Shown here piece by piece: positions 1,357 to 8,914 of a stretch of 32,110 nucleotides of DNA. Origin of the DNA: Promethearchaeota archaeon (GTDB taxonomy: Archaea; Asgardarchaeota; Lokiarchaeia; Sigynarchaeales; SOKP01); contig WJIN01000075.1 in the NCBI GenBank assembly GCA_014730295.1, forward strand, positions 1 to 32,110, written 5' to 3'. Numbering within the stretch: the first letter of the stretch is position 1; each line of letters starts with the position of its first letter. Made by a program: the position numbers and the translations under genes. The notes beneath the pieces are model-generated. The model was not told the DNA's origin. It saw only the letters and a program-made list of their open reading frames with translations, and did no database searches.

Positions 1357-2394
1357 ATGATTAAAGAGATGAAAATTGTGAAAAATAAAAATAAAATAAT
1401 TATTCTATTATTAACATCAGCAATTTTATTCGGCTTGATTTTTCAAGCTACTAATTCAGATGAAAATATGAGAATAAAGACTTCTGCTGACCAAGAGGTT
1501 AAAGTAGTGGCAACCACTCATATACTTAGAGATTTTGCACAAGAGATAATTGGAGACACAGGGATCGTTTCAGTAATTATCGAAAGCGGTTCTTGTCCAG
1601 GGCATTATGATTATCCTCCAAGTGATATAAGTAAGGTGAGTGAAGCAGATATCGTGTTTTATCATGGATTTGAAGCATCTGGACTGATGCCGCTACTTCA
1701 AGAAGCAGAAAATATCGATGCAGCATTCGGTATGATTCAAAATAGTAGTATCTCTTGGGCAGACCAATGGGGTTCACCTGATATCGCACCCAAATTCTTG
1801 GAAGAGATATGTGCGCATTTAAATGATACATATCCATCATTAGCAGAAACATTTAATGATAATAAGGAAGCGTATTTAGCGAAACTTGAAGGATATAAAA
1901 CCTATTTTGAGATGAAAATAAATAGGACCTATAAATGGAATAATACAAACGCATATGTGATGAAACATCAAAATAAATTTATGAATTGGATCGGATTTAA
2001 CGTTTCTGGTCCTTCTGTTTGGACAATGGATGACAATACAATGACTCCATCCGATATTCAACATATTGCTGGTAATGCGACAGAACATAATGCTGAGATA
2101 ATCGTGGGGAATTATCATTCTGGAACAGATGTGGGAAAGGAAATTGCAAATAGTCTTGGTATCGAGAGTGTGTTTTTACTGAATTTTCCCGGTGTTTATG
2201 GTATCAATACTTATATAGAGCAATTAGAATTCAATATTGCGTTATTGAATCACGTTCTAAATGGTGGAATAGACCCGAGACCTTCTAATGGAGGGGGAAA
2301 TATAGGTATTAACTTAATTGTACCTCTTATAGTTGCTACTGTGGGATGTATTGGTCTGCTTATATATAAGAAACGAGAATCACTATTTAAATAG
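1357..2394 (+). CDS. Metal ABC transporter substrate-binding protein (ZnuA/TroA family, divergent)
   Basis: 345 residues. A basic start and one hydrophobic helix (about 10-30) export or anchor the protein. The body begins VKVVATTHILRDFAQEIIGD, the usual opening of cluster A-I (ZnuA/TroA) metal-binding proteins. A first histidine ligand is plausible in GHYDYPPSDISKV. The second canonical ligand region reads WADQWGSP where the family normally has a His, and a later HQN and NYHSG supply other histidines, so metal preference may differ from classical Zn/Mn proteins. A C-terminal helix with a basic end (about 318-340) suggests membrane anchoring on the outer face. It is the first gene of a cluster with an ATPase 54 nt downstream and then a permease. 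An ATG at 1369 is an alternative start. Confidence 0.85.
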   Translation: MIKEMKIVKNKNKIIILLLTSAILFGLIFQATNSDENMRIKTSADQEVKVVATTHILRDFAQEIIGDTGIVSVIIESGSCPGHYDYPPSDISKVSEADIVFYHGFEASGLMPLLQEAENIDAAFGMIQNSSISWADQWGSPDIAPKFLEEICAHLNDTYPSLAETFNDNKEAYLAKLEGYKTYFEMKINRTYKWNNTNAYVMKHQNKFMNWIGFNVSGPSVWTMDDNTMTPSDIQHIAGNATEHNAEIIVGNYHSGTDVGKEIANSLGIESVFLLNFPGVYGINTYIEQLEFNIALLNHVLNGGIDPRPSNGGGNIGINLIVPLIVATVGCIGLLIYKKRESLFK

Positions 2395-2448: not shown

Positions 2449-3288
2449 ATGATGCTTGAAAAAAGTTTTAATAGGCAATTTCTTGAAGCTATAAAAAACC
2501 AGAAAAGCTACAAAGGAAGTTCTGAAAAAAAAATAGATTATTATATGAAACCACAAATAACATTGGGAAATGTAAATACAGTTTATGAGGGAGAGCGATA
2601 TCTTACGCTATATGATATCAATTTAAAGATACATAAAGGAGAATTTATTCTTATTATAGGTCCTAATGGATCGGGAAAAACTACATTACTAGAAACAATT
2701 CTTGGTATGTTACCCATTCAAAAAGGAACGATTAATATAAATGGAAAATCTATTTTCAAGAATGTGCGCCATTTAAGAAAGAAAATAGGATATTTAATCC
2801 AAGGAATAGAATTCGATCCAAAAACACCTTTTTTGGTTAAAACAGCGGTTATGACTGCTCGAGCGGGAAGGTTAGGGCTCTTAAAGTTTCCGAAGAAAGC
2901 AGACCGAGAGATAGCTCGATATTGTTATGATGCGATACGAAATAAACAGGAAGTGGAGGATTATTGGGAAAAACCTATCGGAAAATTATCAGGAGGAATG
3001 CAACAAAAGGTTCGAATAGCAAACATTTTAGCAGCTGAACCTGAAATTTTGTTATTAGATGAACCATTTGCGAATTTAGATATAAATGCCCGTCAAGAAA
3101 TGTTTGAACTTTTTTTAAGACTCAATAAACTTGCGAATATAACTATTTTATGTGTTACCCATAGACAAGAATTATCTGAAGATATAGATAGAATTATTAT
3201 GATTCAGAAAGGAAGAATTGTGTTGGATGCAGAACCTGAAGTAGCTCTGAAATCTGATAAATATAAAGCATATTGTAAATTTATGTGA
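2449..3288 (+). CDS. Metal ABC transporter ATP-binding protein, cluster 1
   Basis: 279 residues, cytoplasmic ATPase of the importer. Visible motifs are Walker A GPNGSGKTT (71-79), Q-loop Gln near 118, signature LSGGM (180-184), Walker B ILLLDE (200-205), D-loop and switch His238 (CVTHRQ). The order and spacing match ZnuC/TroB-type metal ABC ATPases. The N-terminus has about 33 extra residues before the usual start; an ATG at 2545 (MKPQITLG) would give a standard-length protein and may be the true start. It lies between the binding protein (54 nt before) and the permease (76 nt after) on the same strand, so the three probably form one operon. Confidence 0.93.
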   Translation: MMLEKSFNRQFLEAIKNQKSYKGSSEKKIDYYMKPQITLGNVNTVYEGERYLTLYDINLKIHKGEFILIIGPNGSGKTTLLETILGMLPIQKGTININGKSIFKNVRHLRKKIGYLIQGIEFDPKTPFLVKTAVMTARAGRLGLLKFPKKADREIARYCYDAIRNKQEVEDYWEKPIGKLSGGMQQKVRIANILAAEPEILLLDEPFANLDINARQEMFELFLRLNKLANITILCVTHRQELSEDIDRIIMIQKGRIVLDAEPEVALKSDKYKAYCKFM

Positions 3289-3364: not shown

Positions 3365-4942
3365 ATGGTAAAAAATTTTAATTTGAATTGGAAAAATATT
3401 ATTTTTGCGGTGATAATTTCTTCAGTACTAACTGCCCTTTTTGCTTTTTATTCTTTTTATAATGAAATTTTTTTTGTTTTTTTACCAGAACGTATCATGA
3501 TAAAAATAATTCTCAGCGCATTATTGGCTGGCTTTGCTTTGAGTTTAGTTGGAACGTTCGTGGTCCATATGAAAATTACAACTGTTGGTTTCTGTATGAG
3601 CCATGCTGCTTTTGCGGGTGCTGCGCTTGGATTATTATTAGAATCATTTGGAAGTGGGATCAACCCAGTATATATGGCGGCCATCTTTACAATCGGGGTT
3701 GCACTCTTATTAGGGCCCCTTTCTGATAAGACAAAATTAGATTCCAATATAATACTTGGGATATTGTTTTCATTAATGATAGCATTAGGGTTTATTTTCA
3801 TTAGTATGATGCCAGAAGGAGTCACAGGAGCTAGTTCAATGGGAATTATTTGGGGAAGTTTATTTGGACTAAGTCAAGAAGAATTAGTAATCTTAATCAT
3901 ACTGAATTTATCTGTAATTCTATTGCTTATACTATTTTATAAAGAATTCATGAGTATTATGTTGAATGAGAAAATGGCATTAGCAGCGGGTATTAATGTG
4001 GCATTTTTCAAATTTTTGATTTTACTCGCAACAGCAGTCGCAGTATCGTTTTCGATTAATATTGTTGGAGCATTCCTCGTTTATGCTATGATTGTGAATC
4101 CCACTTCCACTGTATACCAATATGTCTATGATACAAAAAAGTTGTTTATATTCTCGCCTATTGTAGGGGTGGTCACTATATTAGGTGGTGTTTATCTTTC
4201 ATTGTTGTTGGACTTTCCCATCTCTTCTTCTATTATCGTATTTTCAGCAACAATTTTTGCACTCTCGGTATTAATATCACCCAAACATAAAAAAGTTAAG
4301 AGAAAAGATAAATTTATGACTTCCGAGGAAAAAAATATCAATAAAATACGAAAATATTTTGATGATCGAGCAGAAAATTGGGATGATAACGTTTTTCATG
4401 ATCCTAATAAAATTGAAATTTTGCTCCAAGAACTAGATTTAAAGAAAGGAGAAACTATTCTCGATGTAGGCAGTGGTACTGGTGTCATGGTCCCATATTT
4501 AAACGAAAAAATCGGAGAGAAAGGAGAGATTGTAGCTATAGATATCTCCGAGGAGATGATCTCGAAGGCCAAGAAAAAATTTGGTGATAGATATACAAAT
4601 TTACAGCTGAAAGTAGAAGATGTCAATGAAATCCAATATGAAATAAACTTTGATACTATTCTCTGTTATTCTTGTTTTCCTCATTTCTTAGATCAAGAAT
4701 ATACAATCAAAAAAATGGCGAACCTACTGAAGAAACAAGGAAGATTAATGATTGCTCATTCTCAATCTCGAGATGATATAAATAGTCTCCATAAAAATGT
4801 GGATGGGATTGTTAATGAAGATCGATTACCTCCAATGAGAAAATTGAAAAAAATGATGGAGAAGAACGGATTAAAGATAATAAAATCCTTGGATAATGAT
4901 AAGATGTTTTACATCATTGGAGAAAAAGAATTTCAGATATAA
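3365..4942 (+). CDS. Metal ABC permease (ABC-3) fused to class I SAM methyltransferase
   Basis: 525 residues in one uninterrupted frame. Residues 1 to about 305 form a ZnuB/TroC-type ABC-3 permease with about eight to nine hydrophobic helices; family-like segments include FVVHMKITTVGFCMSHAAFA and SINIVGAFLVYAMIVNP. A short basic linker (about 306-317) leads to Met318 (codon at 4316), where a complete methyltransferase begins. It shows IRKYFDDRAENWDD, motif I ILDVGSGTG (near 365-373), IVAIDISEEMI and motif IV-like FDTILCYSCFPHF. Stand-alone proteins of both kinds are common; the fusion is unusual. No ribosome binding site is visible before codon 318, which argues against two overlapping genes. 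The methyltransferase would lie in the cytoplasm next to the transport channel. Its substrate is unknown; a metal species, metal chelator or thiol are guesses. Confidence 0.88.
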   Translation: MVKNFNLNWKNIIFAVIISSVLTALFAFYSFYNEIFFVFLPERIMIKIILSALLAGFALSLVGTFVVHMKITTVGFCMSHAAFAGAALGLLLESFGSGINPVYMAAIFTIGVALLLGPLSDKTKLDSNIILGILFSLMIALGFIFISMMPEGVTGASSMGIIWGSLFGLSQEELVILIILNLSVILLLILFYKEFMSIMLNEKMALAAGINVAFFKFLILLATAVAVSFSINIVGAFLVYAMIVNPTSTVYQYVYDTKKLFIFSPIVGVVTILGGVYLSLLLDFPISSSIIVFSATIFALSVLISPKHKKVKRKDKFMTSEEKNINKIRKYFDDRAENWDDNVFHDPNKIEILLQELDLKKGETILDVGSGTGVMVPYLNEKIGEKGEIVAIDISEEMISKAKKKFGDRYTNLQLKVEDVNEIQYEINFDTILCYSCFPHFLDQEYTIKKMANLLKKQGRLMIAHSQSRDDINSLHKNVDGIVNEDRLPPMRKLKKMMEKNGLKIIKSLDNDKMFYIIGEKEFQI

Positions 4943-5370: not shown

Positions 5371-5811
5371 CTAATCTGAGAATTCTTTTTGGCAAAAACA
5401 GTTATTGGAATTGAGTATTTTTTCCCCACATGGACATTCTTCTGGATGGTCATATTTTTCACAAATTCTATTTATCGTTTTACAAGAGAAAAGTAGATTG
5501 AATTTTTCGCTTTCATTGTGTGCCTCTTCTGTGGTTAAATCGAGTTCTTTATATAGAAGAACTTCTAATAGTTGTGTATGGCGTATTAATTCCTTTGCAT
5601 AATTTTCCCCTTCAGTTGTCAATTCTATCGGTTGATACTTCTCCCAAATAACCAGTTTTTGTTCATGTAAGCGTTCTATACAGCTGTCTATTGTGGAATA
5701 CCTCACTTCATGATATCCATAATTATTCAACTCATCCTGGATATGCTTAATCTTGGCTTTCCTATTATTCCGATAAATAATTTTTAGCACTTTATAGTCA
5801 ATGTCATTCAT
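5371..5811 (-). CDS. DtxR/MntR/TroR-type metal-dependent regulator, altered metal site, Cys-rich tail
   Basis: 146 residues. An N-terminal winged helix (1-70) ends in PIELTTEGENYAKELIRH, matching the wing and first dimerisation helix of DtxR-family repressors. Family positions kept are His78 (RHTQLLE), Glu83, His98 and Glu102. The conserved Glu-His pair that follows in MntR and DtxR (E102-H103 in MntR) is Asn105-Leu106 here, so two primary metal ligands are missing. The C-terminus instead carries cysteines 110, 117, 126, 128, 138 and 140. There is no SH3-like domain, as in TroR and MntR. It is the last gene of cluster 2 and likely controls it; TroR is also encoded in its transporter operon. 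What it senses (another metal, Fe-S or redox state) is open. Confidence 0.85.
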   Translation of the reverse strand: MNDIDYKVLKIIYRNNRKAKIKHIQDELNNYGYHEVRYSTIDSCIERLHEQKLVIWEKYQPIELTTEGENYAKELIRHTQLLEVLLYKELDLTTEEAHNESEKFNLLFSCKTINRICEKYDHPEECPCGEKILNSNNCFCQKEFSD

Positions 5812-5886
5812 ATTCCCAATTAACTCCTAGCATTTCATTCCAATTCTTAAAAATTTAATGTCATTTAAAATGGTTCTTATGATTTC

Positions 5887-6630
5887 TTAAAAGAAGGTAC
5901 TATATAATATCTTATCAACATTCTCTCCATGGGGAGATCCATCATAGATAATTTGTTTGTTTAATATAACTAATCGATTGATATCCTCACGCAGCAAATC
6001 CAAATTGTGATTTATCGTCAAGATAGTAAGATTTCGTTCATCATGCAGTCTGGTTATCAATTCTGTTATTTCTTTTGTAATTTTAAAATCAAGATTACTT
6101 GTAGGTTCATCTAACAACAGAATTTCTGGTTCTCTTACTAATGATCTTGCGATAAGGACTTTTTGCTGTTGTCCGCCGCTCAAGTGTCCTATCGGACGGT
6201 CTTTCTGCTCATACATCCCAACGAATTTCAGTTCCTCTTCCATTCTTTTATAATCTTCTTTCTTCAATGGGCTCCCTAAAAAATTTAACCCATACCTTCC
6301 CATTAAAACCACATCTTGTACTTTGGCGGGGAAAAATTGATCTATTTGATGAGCTTGAGGAACGTATGCGATCTTATTGAGTGTTCTTTTAGGCAAGTTT
6401 CCCACGGGTTTTCCATATATACTTACTTGCCCTTCAATCGGTTGTTTTAGTCCTAAAATCACTTTAAATAATGTTGTCTTACCCGAAGCGTTAGGTCCTG
6501 CAATTCCAATATAATCTCCCCGAGAAACATCCAAATTTATTTGCCATAATGCCACTACATCTCCATAAGTCACGGTTACCCCATTAACACAGATCGCATC
6601 TCCTTCTTGACATATTTGTTTACCTCTCAT
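5887..6630 (-). CDS. Metal ABC transporter ATP-binding protein, cluster 2
   Basis: 247 residues. Motifs are Walker A GPNASGKTT (45-53; Ala where Gly is usual, a tolerated change), Q-loop Gln92, signature LSGGQ (150-154), Walker B ILLLDE (170-175), DPTSNLD-type D-loop and switch His208 (INHN). It has the standard length and domain order of ZnuC/TroB ATPases. Its start overlaps the permease stop by 4 nt (ATGA), a sign of translational coupling. The regulator gene starts 75 nt downstream on the same strand. It powers the second metal importer. Confidence 0.95.
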   Translation of the reverse strand: MRGKQICQEGDAICVNGVTVTYGDVVALWQINLDVSRGDYIGIAGPNASGKTTLFKVILGLKQPIEGQVSIYGKPVGNLPKRTLNKIAYVPQAHQIDQFFPAKVQDVVLMGRYGLNFLGSPLKKEDYKRMEEELKFVGMYEQKDRPIGHLSGGQQQKVLIARSLVREPEILLLDEPTSNLDFKITKEITELITRLHDERNLTILTINHNLDLLREDINRLVILNKQIIYDGSPHGENVDKILYSTFF

Positions 6631-7682
6631 TTTTCCTCCACCATGTTTTTTTTGGTTTCTTTATTCTCTTCCTTTATTGGTTTATGACCCTCCCATTTAT
6701 GCTCGGGAGGGAATTTTTTTGGTTTGACCTGCAAGATAATTTTTTCTGTATCAATATGAGCATGAGGGACGTCAATTCCAAGCGGATGGTCAAATCGCTG
6801 TTGTAATTCCTTATAACCCTTCGAATATTTGAATTTGAGTTTATTAATAAATTTTGATAAACGTTTCGGAGAGAAGATAAACGCAACTAAAAAAAATCCA
6901 GTCGCGATGATGACTATGGAAGGTCCTCCCGGAAGATTATATAAAAATGAAATCAACACACCCAAAAATCCTGACAGAGCTCCGAACAGAGCGGATAAGA
7001 TAATCATTAGGCGGTAATTATAAGTAAGCATATAGGCCGTGGCAGCGGGCATTATAAATATTGCGAATACTAGTATTGCACCTATAGATTGAATAGTTAC
7101 GGCGATTAATGCGGCTAAAAGCATTAAGAAAAGGTAATCAAGGACTTTTACGGGAATCCCAGACAATTTTGCCATCTCTTTATCGAATACCAGAAAAAAC
7201 AACTCTTTTCGAAAATACAGAAGAATACCTATCACTATCACACTGACGATTATCAATGTTACCACTTGTTCTTGATTTATATAAAAAAGCGCCCCAAAAA
7301 GTATACTGCTAACACTCGCAGAAACCTCAGTTAATAGGTTTATAAATATAATTCCTAAAGCCATCATCCCAGAAAATATTATTGCGAGAATGATATTCTC
7401 GTTCATTATTTTTTTCTGGTTGACATATCCCACTGAAAGTGCACTGAGTTCTGAAAATAGAAAGATCATGTATATGGGTTGAACACCGATGACTAATGCT
7501 AAAGCAACCCCGGCAAATGCAGAATGGGCTATTGCCTCTCCTAAAAAGATGATTTTGTACAGTATTATAAATGTTCCGATAATCCCACCCACAATCCCAA
7601 TTACAATAGCAGCTACTAAAATTCTTTGCATCCAAACCCGATCAAATAATTCAAAAAATTCGATTATTGTAATGTTTATCAT
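6627..7682 (-). CDS. Metal ABC transporter permease (ABC-3), cluster 2
   Basis: 351 residues with about eight to nine hydrophobic helices in the first 275 residues. Family-like segments include FLGEAIAHSAFAGVALA and SIGAILVFAIFIMPAATAYML. Beyond the membrane domain is a hydrophilic tail of about 75 residues that is lysine-rich and holds several histidines (HPLGIDVPHAHID, HKWEGHK). It could bind metal at the cytoplasmic side, although this is inference. The cluster 1 permease carries a methyltransferase at the same place, so both permeases have C-terminal additions. The gene lies between the binding protein (72 nt upstream) and the ATPase (4-nt overlap). Confidence 0.93.
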   Translation of the reverse strand: MINITIIEFFELFDRVWMQRILVAAIVIGIVGGIIGTFIILYKIIFLGEAIAHSAFAGVALALVIGVQPIYMIFLFSELSALSVGYVNQKKIMNENIILAIIFSGMMALGIIFINLLTEVSASVSSILFGALFYINQEQVVTLIIVSVIVIGILLYFRKELFFLVFDKEMAKLSGIPVKVLDYLFLMLLAALIAVTIQSIGAILVFAIFIMPAATAYMLTYNYRLMIILSALFGALSGFLGVLISFLYNLPGGPSIVIIATGFFLVAFIFSPKRLSKFINKLKFKYSKGYKELQQRFDHPLGIDVPHAHIDTEKIILQVKPKKFPPEHKWEGHKPIKEENKETKKNMVEEK

Positions 7683-7754
7683 AACATTCTCACCAATAGT
7701 ATTATTGTTTGATATTAGATTTAAAATAGAAAAAAAATTATTGAATATTATTTA

Positions 7755-8852
7755 TTATTGAAGTTTCCTCTTTCGATATATAATTACGATTATTGAGCTA
7801 ATTCCAAATATCGACAATAGAGTGATTATTAAGTCAAATCCTGGAATGTATCCTCCATCTGGTTCATAAGGCTTGCCATTGATTAATTGATACGTATTAA
7901 ATTCGACCATTTCGAGGTATGTATCGATTTGACTACCGAATTTGGGAACCCATTCTGAAGGTGTTTGAATAGGTAATAGTGGGGTAAGCATTGTCATATT
8001 TGCTCCACTCTCCCTCGAAAGGTCAGTAGCGTATTCTTCACTTATGACTTCTTGCGGATGCCATATTATAGTGCAAGAGTCATTAAGAATACTTCTTATG
8101 TAATCTAAATGAGTTCCTGATACTTCAACACCCGGTTTTTCTTCAATCACCGCTACGCGAGTTAAGTTCAAATCATCCTCTAAATAATAATAAAACGCAG
8201 GATGAAAAGGGACTAATTTAAGATTTTTATATTCTGGAGTGTCTTTAATTGCATTTAGCCAATCAATCGTGTAATTTAATTGGAGGTCATATACTTCCAA
8301 ATTGGCATCAATTGTATTATTTATAAGCGCATTTGAACCGATCTCTGCCTTTAATCCATCAGCTAATCTATGGATAAAATTTCTCGCAATTAGGGGGCTT
8401 GTCCACATATGCATATTGGGAGGTTGTGCAGGATGTTGCCATTTGGGATCTTTTCTCGGATTATATCCCCATACAGGATCCTCTGTAATATTAACCCATA
8501 AATTGACTATTGGTACTTCGGGAAATGAATCCTCGATATCTTCAGCGTAAGTTTCTATTGGTATATTAAGTTTTACAAATAGATCGGCTCCATCCATCTT
8601 TAAAAGCGCATCTGAAGAAGGGTCGTAAGAATGGACGTCTTGGCTTCCGCTCACTAGCACATAGATATCTGCTTCCACATTTCGCAATAATTGTCGGGTC
8701 CAATCTTCTGTAATCGACATATAGGTGACGATTTTAGGTCTATTCGATGATGTGTTGAATTCAGAATGAGCTTTAGAATCAAAAGTTGGTAATCCAGTAA
8801 GAATAAATAAGCCCAAGAGGATAATACTTGCTATCTGTATCTTCTTTTTCAT
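7755..8852 (-). CDS. Metal ABC transporter substrate-binding protein (ZnuA/TroA family), C-terminally anchored
   Basis: 365 residues from the chosen start. The frame stays open to an ATG at 8906, but that start would fall inside the TATA box and operators, and the ATG at 8852 opens directly into a signal peptide (MKKKIQIASIILLGLFIL). Canonical ligands are visible: His in SGSQDVHSYDPSS, His in NMHMWTSPLIARNF, His in VPFHPAFYYYLED, and an HPQE/ESGANM region for the fourth site. This set is typical of Zn/Mn-binding proteins. The C-terminus (GGYIPGFDLI, a hydrophobic helix, then RKRKLQ) is an archaeal-style membrane anchor or sorting signal. First gene of cluster 2, preceded by two palindromes likely to be its operator. 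Confidence 0.92.
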   Translation of the reverse strand: MKKKIQIASIILLGLFILTGLPTFDSKAHSEFNTSSNRPKIVTYMSITEDWTRQLLRNVEADIYVLVSGSQDVHSYDPSSDALLKMDGADLFVKLNIPIETYAEDIEDSFPEVPIVNLWVNITEDPVWGYNPRKDPKWQHPAQPPNMHMWTSPLIARNFIHRLADGLKAEIGSNALINNTIDANLEVYDLQLNYTIDWLNAIKDTPEYKNLKLVPFHPAFYYYLEDDLNLTRVAVIEEKPGVEVSGTHLDYIRSILNDSCTIIWHPQEVISEEYATDLSRESGANMTMLTPLLPIQTPSEWVPKFGSQIDTYLEMVEFNTYQLINGKPYEPDGGYIPGFDLIITLLSIFGISSIIVIIYRKRKLQ

Positions 8853-8862
8853 TTTTAAGTTT

Positions 8863-8914
8863 TTACGAAAGTTCGTAATCATTTTACGATCGATCGTAAT
8901 ATACAATATTTAAA
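8863..8914 (-). promoter_or_regulatory. Promoter with twin TTACGA-N4-TCGTAA palindromes
   Basis: The perfect 16-bp palindrome TTACGATCGATCGTAA lies at 8884-8899 and the near-perfect TTACGAAAGTTCGTAA at 8863-8878. Their starts are 21 bp apart, two helical turns. On the minus strand a TATA-like CTTTAAATATT (about 8905-8915) would place transcription initiation near 8880-8888, so the palindromes cover the start site and early leader. This is the layout of a repressor bound as two dimers on one DNA face. The obvious candidate is the DtxR-like regulator encoded by the last gene of this operon. Confidence 0.75.

Follow-up and report, generated by a model that had tools for sequence, protein, structure and literature searches.

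A permease-methyltransferase fusion of Asgard archaea as one form of a wider pairing between importers and a single methyltransferase family

In Asgard archaea an ABC-3 importer permease is fused, in one reading frame, to a complete class I methyltransferase, and this fusion is one form of a much wider pairing of importers with the same methyltransferase family, mostly encoded by separate genes. The fusion was studied in a window (the whole stretch of DNA that was analysed) of 32,110 nucleotides from contig WJIN01000075.1 of a Promethearchaeota archaeon (GCA_014730295.1). The best explanation, to which a probability of about two in five is given, is that this enzyme, here named importer-associated methyltransferase, methylates an imported compound at the cytoplasmic opening of the transporter. 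Both parts are of known kinds, and their pairing and fusion are undescribed in the literature searched.

The fused gene is the third of a row, following the genes of a binding protein and an ATPase with gaps of 54 bases between these two and of 76 bases between the ATPase and the fused gene. The features of the row are the following:

1357..2394, + strand: divergent substrate-binding protein of the ZnuA/TroA type, 345 aa (PF01297, E 1.6e-28)
1594-1596 and 1603-1605, + strand: codons of Cys80 and His83 in the CPGH motif of the binding protein (DPH in canonical members)
2449..3288, + strand: ATPase subunit of the ABC importer, 279 aa (PF00005, E 1.3e-31)
3365..4942, + strand: fused ABC-3 permease and class I methyltransferase (Pfam, AlphaFold2 model)
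3365..4276, + strand: permease part, residues 1-304 (PF00950, model helices, alignment to PsaC and ZnuB)
residues 9-33 of the fused protein, + strand: extra N-terminal helix of the permease (model helices)
3590-3604, + strand: G-x-x-x-x-H motif of the permease with Phe76, Cys77 and His80 (alignment to PsaC and ZnuB)
4277..4336, + strand: basic linker, residues 305-324 (model, with low confidence at 314-319)
4337..4939, + strand: methyltransferase part, residues 325-525 (PF13847, conservation over 114 relatives)
4460-4483, + strand: motif I, LDVGSGTG, residues 366-373
4664, 4682, 4757 and 4790, + strand: Cys434, His440, His465 and His476 of the methyltransferase (conservation)

The frame at 3365-4942 starts with ATG and runs uninterrupted for 525 aa. 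Its first half matches PF00950 at residues 44-303 (E 9.2e-46) and, with 156.9 bits against a Pfam gathering score of 20.1, is an ABC-3 permease; the main Pfam match of the second half is Methyltransf_31 (PF13847, residues 360-484, E 1.8e-22), and this match, motif I and Rossmann-type fold matches make it a class I SAM methyltransferase. An earlier note on this DNA had described exactly such an intact frame with the LDVGSGTG motif, as well as a basic linker between the halves, and Pfam and the 525-aa frame bear it out, with 11 Lys or Arg among 28 linker residues. The AlphaFold2 model of the fused protein reaches a mean pLDDT of 91 and a pTM of 0.67, a value that leaves the mutual placing of the permease and methyltransferase halves loose.

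The fusion is real and conserved. At least 30 other database proteins, from among the 8000 best-scoring candidates, match the fused protein with a coverage of at least 92% and identities of 48-77%, and the named nearest relatives among the matches listed belong to Lokiarchaeota or Promethearchaeota. The fused frame was also found without an internal stop in 4 of 227 genomes from the phylum of the L001 genome (E 1e-30, six candidates scored per genome), these four overlapping in part with the matching proteins. Because at least 30 proteins from several sources and four stop-free Asgard frames match, a sequencing error is very unlikely, and the possibility raised earlier, that a stop near 4300-4320 had been missed, was rejected on the intact frame and the conserved full-length relatives. 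A second protein starting at the ATG at 4316 was rejected as well, since just 6 of the 30 fused proteins that could be parsed have a Met in the linker (31 were taken, with P0023 unparsed, and only ATG starts were scored, not GTG or TTG); a clear ribosome-binding site was not found by eye for this ATG.

Besides the fusion in other proteins, the earlier note had proposed looking for separate neighbouring genes in relatives, and these occur in the Asgard genome G091, where the permease frame stops at a TGA and the ATG of the enzyme follows 44 bases on, with GGTGAG before it. Six more Asgard loci carry this permease type without any methyltransferase-like stretch nearby (a seventh, L105, was set aside for a contig edge downstream), so transport can do without the methyltransferase. 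The fused label needs seven changes on the methyltransferase tree, which means either that fusion and separation occurred repeatedly or that a part of the separate cases are broken assemblies. With residues 320-525 as query, 20 other ABC-3 fusions were retrieved among proteins of about 289-919 aa, together with one weak match of the glycosyltransferase type, P0085. No relative of the full protein was found in the viral contigs scanned. Another kind of permease fusion is P0066 (533 aa), for which both ABC-3 (PF00950) and the iron-dependent repressor domain PF02742 are listed.

For the wider pairing, one genome per species was scanned with an alignment of the methyltransferase domain, and the best 80 of 104 confirmed loci were kept, of which 8 were set aside for a contig edge upstream. 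Of the 72 informative loci, 57 have the methyltransferase either joined to an importer gene or directly behind one, the importer gene then lying on the same strand and ending no more than 450 bases upstream. The importer is of the ABC-3 type in 24 cases (4 fused, 20 separate), an ECF S component in 25 (L008, with the S component at 5440-5967 directly upstream of the methyltransferase, and 24 other loci), of the nickel/peptide type in 6 and of the FecCD type in 2; these neighbour classes were defined after the data were seen, the ECF, SBP5, ATPase, ZnuA, NikB and NikC profiles being built from neighbours of the same loci and the ABC-3 profile from fused-protein matches. For a control, 18 methyltransferases of lower score were taken from five genomes that had also supplied loci, and none of them lies behind an importer, or two if a bare ABC ATPase is counted (Fisher p 2.7e-10 and 1.4e-7, respectively); a FecCD profile of two sequences was applied to this control and not to the 72-locus count. 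Most separate ABC-3 loci repeat the order of the window, namely binding protein, ATPase, permease and methyltransferase, in Dehalococcoidia, other Chloroflexota, Hydrogenedentota, Elusimicrobia, Nitrospirae, Clostridia and a Treponema, and the separate neighbouring enzyme often overlaps the importer gene. The row at L029 combines two types, with a binding protein, an ATPase, an ABC-3 permease, a Fur regulator, an ECF S component and the methyltransferase. Because the paired importers are of unrelated types, a shared imported compound, or class of compounds, is the simplest link between them.

Draws of whole genome groups, which overlap in part with the 80 loci, agree with this picture. In the class of the L040 genome the enzyme is present in 11 of 197 genomes, each time behind an importer gene, while in the class of the L008 genome it is present in 19 of 291, behind an ECF S component in 13 and without an importer in 6. 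The class of the L029 genome has it in 4 of 46 genomes, three copies lying behind an ECF S component and one having an ABC-3 permease about 600 bases upstream. Thermoplasmatota carry 12 copies in 9 of 194 genomes: seven are behind a FecCD-ATPase and one behind a Nik-type ATPase, one is the second of a tandem pair, and three are without an importer. In one of their genomes (G906, L167/L172) tandem methyltransferases follow a permease of the FecCD type and an ATPase. The Asgard genome G212 has a putative FecCD-like permease, an ATPase and the methyltransferase in overlapping order.

The remaining 15 of the 72 loci have no importer directly upstream, the Asgard loci L007 and L009 among them, and they are what would be expected if importer and enzyme shared nothing more than regulation by metal scarcity, with the enzyme acting on an unrelated target and the fusion arising as a by-product of gene order. 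The alternation of fused and separate states and the Fur regulators close by would fit this explanation too, but with four importer types the gene of the enzyme follows that of the importer immediately, in many cases with an overlap, and the fusion is maintained in many Asgard proteins; we therefore consider shared regulation alone unlikely.

As to what is imported, ZnuABC, PsaBCA and TroABCD are ABC-3 relatives of the window importer, which differs from them by its fused methyltransferase. In contrast to these zinc and manganese importers, its permease is without the motif Asp/Glu and its binding protein without the canonical His at two sites, and on these altered sequences it is probably not an ordinary zinc or manganese importer. 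The solved relatives nearest to the binding protein are YfeA and PsaA-like proteins. Zinc and manganese binding proteins have canonical His positions in DPH, NPH and HP, and this pattern appears to be lost in the window protein, which in the alignment has CPGH, where the His is shifted one place on, WADQWG, where there is no His, and MKHQ. Among 23 linked binding proteins, with the canonical-looking one of L029 set apart, Cys-Pro replaces Asp-Pro in 20 and CPGH with the later His is found in 16; the NPH and HP pair is absent in all 23, nine having a His near the HP site. In the G-D-x-x-x-H motif of the permease His80 is kept and the Asp/Glu is replaced by Phe76, unlike PsaC (GDAISH) and ZnuB (GDTLAH), which both carry the Asp; Asp46 and His50 of PsaC are presumably metal-binding residues. 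The motif Asp/Glu is kept in none of the 56 fused-type or linked permeases as against 26 of the 38 others, and a Cys follows its position in 35 of the 56. In a tree of the 94 permeases compared, from which two partial ones were left out, one group (99/90, L066 included) unites the fused-type permeases with the linked ones of bacteria and leaves L029 out; a topology constrained to keep all 56 as one group was not rejected (p-AU 0.25). The term metal channel used in the earlier note is thus doubtful in its zinc or manganese sense, since the canonical ligand positions are lost in both binding protein and permease.

The ECF S partner has two invariant His residues (in FH and FLPMH) in 23 of 23 aligned members, and its sequence matched no solved structure up to E 1. 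Fur regulators are present at L029 and L075, TonB receptors stand beside the importer at L055, L016 and L030, and NikA-like binding proteins and FmdE are among the neighbours scanned. A few genes upstream of an ECF S and methyltransferase pair are acsB at L010 (62-6561) and RACo with DUF3786 at L008 (1923-6570); acsB and RACo both fit the metal theme of these neighbours. The altered sites, the His residues of the ECF S component, Fur, the TonB receptors, the NikA-like proteins, FmdE and acsB together point to the import of a metal complex or a metal-related cofactor and not of bare zinc or manganese.

In the L040 class, the CODH/ACS subunit PF03598 is found in 84 of 197 genomes overall, that is, in 11 of 11 genomes with the methyltransferase against 73 of 186 others, and in the L008 class CODH/ACS is found in 6 of 19 methyltransferase genomes against 9 of 272 others (Fisher p 6e-5 and 1e-4, respectively, with kinship ignored and with score cut-offs that differ between the two classes). 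Nickel, which the L040 class supports, was considered as a general answer and not adopted, because 13 of the 19 methyltransferase genomes of the L008 class are without CODH/ACS at the cut-off used.

The TonB receptors that adjoin the importer at three loci also agree with a different role, in which the methyltransferase makes or finishes an endogenous metallophore or related cofactor that the neighbouring importer then retrieves, and further methyltransferases beside it at L008, L037 and L043 could belong to such a pathway. Nevertheless, no exporter or metallophore synthase was recognised in the chosen part of the neighbours scanned, and fusion to an import permease suits incoming rather than outgoing material, which makes this role distinctly unlikely.

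The methyltransferase family is sharply bounded: in the eight genomes searched the best match scores 172-253 bits and the next methyltransferase at most 82, G235 being the genome with the lesser second match only. These eight genomes show one clear orthologue each, and the window copy is fused to the permease. Over 114 sequences Trp339, Asp340, Pro439-His440-Phe441, Arg469 and Asn473 are nearly or fully invariant, Cys434 is kept in 110, and His440, His465 and His476 are each kept in all 114 relatives. His440 and His465 lie within the patterns used to collect the loci, while Trp339, Arg469, Asn473 and His476 lie outside them; 11 loci without the first scan pattern and 64 without the second still keep those His residues. 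The AlphaFold2 model places Cys434 at the end of strand 4, His440 in the next loop, His465 at the end of strand 5, and Arg469, Asn473 and His476 in the helix after strand 5. In enzymes of this fold the substrate is bound beside SAM in this region, and the conserved Cys and His residues are thus predicted to lie at the substrate face of the enzyme.

The nearest folds are small-molecule methyltransferases, and the fold list names no ABC-3 fusion. UbiG, phosphoethanolamine methyltransferase and the archaeal Hvo_0019 are class I small-molecule kin of the methyltransferase half; unlike them, the present family has the specific stretches C-[YN]-S-x-F-P-H-F and H-[ST]-x-S-R-x-x-I-N-x-x-H. Among the best 25 of 57 NCBIfam matches no curated cut-off is reached, general class I likeness being seen to the DVU_1556 family methyltransferase (47.2 bits against a cut-off of 155) and to the corrinoid-associated CpaM (51.5 against 180). 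The DVU_1556 family and CpaM are likewise tied to anaerobes.

Conserved Cys and His residues would also suit an ArsM-like detoxification of a metal or metalloid entering by the importer. The window enzyme does show a weak similarity to ArsM-type models, but its scores of 56.5 and 50 bits are far from the cut-offs of 575 and 263, and the efflux or Ars neighbours expected in that case were not recognised in the chosen part of the neighbours scanned, so that detoxification seems highly improbable. Very unlikely, too, is that the enzyme adjusts the transporter by methylating it as a protein, or serves as a SAM sensor attached to it: the direct tether to the permease would suit such roles, but the family follows importers of the ABC-3, ECF S, Nik and FecCD types, among which no target surface is common to all, and the nearest folds act on small molecules. 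Syntrophomonas-type proteins of about 550 aa (P0049 and P0050) start with this methyltransferase, and at L043 a separate gene of the O-methyltransferase type (PF00891) is found in the Nik-type row that holds the methyltransferase; the two long proteins may join the methyltransferase to an enzyme of the PF00891 type.

Under the preferred reading, methylation of the imported compound, the binding protein (1357-2394), the ATPase (2449-3288) and the permease half of 3365-4942 would bring in some scarce compound, most probably a metal complex and not a bare zinc or manganese ion, and the methyltransferase half would be tethered by the basic linker at the cytoplasmic end of the permease. The linker and the need for SAM suggest that the enzyme faces the cytoplasm, and we infer that it acts on the incoming compound, because unrelated importers share its family. 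SAM-dependent methylation would then modify this compound during entry, the metal's ligand being the probable site; a guess is that methylation would trap the ligand in the cell, weaken its hold on the metal and so drive metal release. Against this reading stand the 15 importer-free loci, the importer-free copies in the group draws, the Asgard permeases that occur alone, the canonical-looking binding protein of L029, and the position of His440 and His465 inside the collection patterns. A broader proposal, which we regard as doubtful, is that anaerobes and Asgard archaea generally open imported metal complexes by methylating the ligand at the inner end of the importer, which would add a third route to reduction and hydrolysis; a single enzyme family would do this for importers of the ABC-3, ECF, Nik and FecCD types and would be fused to the permease in Asgard archaea.

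The suggestion of the earlier note that an enzyme at the cytoplasmic end modifies the incoming substrate or a chelator is therefore kept as the most likely reading, since members of the family are found behind importers of four or more unrelated types. Its statement that no system of this form had been described agrees with the literature searched, from which subscription journals were mostly outside and in which no account of the pairing or fusion was found; yet the fusion is not an isolated oddity but one version of a wider pairing. The available passages of an archaeal fusion survey did not contain permease or zinc (PMC11237513), and the available part of an Asgard transporter survey did not contain such a fusion (PMC7997004). 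In one database, some of these proteins have already been labelled permease/methyltransferase by automatic annotation. If the reading is true, an unnamed methyltransferase family of anaerobes would gain a role, the label zinc/manganese transporter would need correction for a whole importer subfamily, and a compound yet to be named would be imported by Asgard archaea, Dehalococcoidia, Clostridia and Thermoplasmatota alike. The fusion would also offer a direct handle, in that the binding protein could serve as bait for the compound and the enzyme as a readout of its methylation.

Two neighbours of the row complete the window. A 256-aa frame beside the importer (162-932, - strand) has no Pfam or NCBIfam match at E 0.001. 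On the other side lies a second importer set:

5371-8906, - strand: second, divergently placed set with a DtxR-type regulator, an ATPase, an ABC-3 permease and a ZnuA-type protein

The binding protein of this second importer keeps the canonical His pattern, and it carries a Loki-CTERM-like C-terminal stretch that scores 23.4 bits against a cut-off of 19.9.
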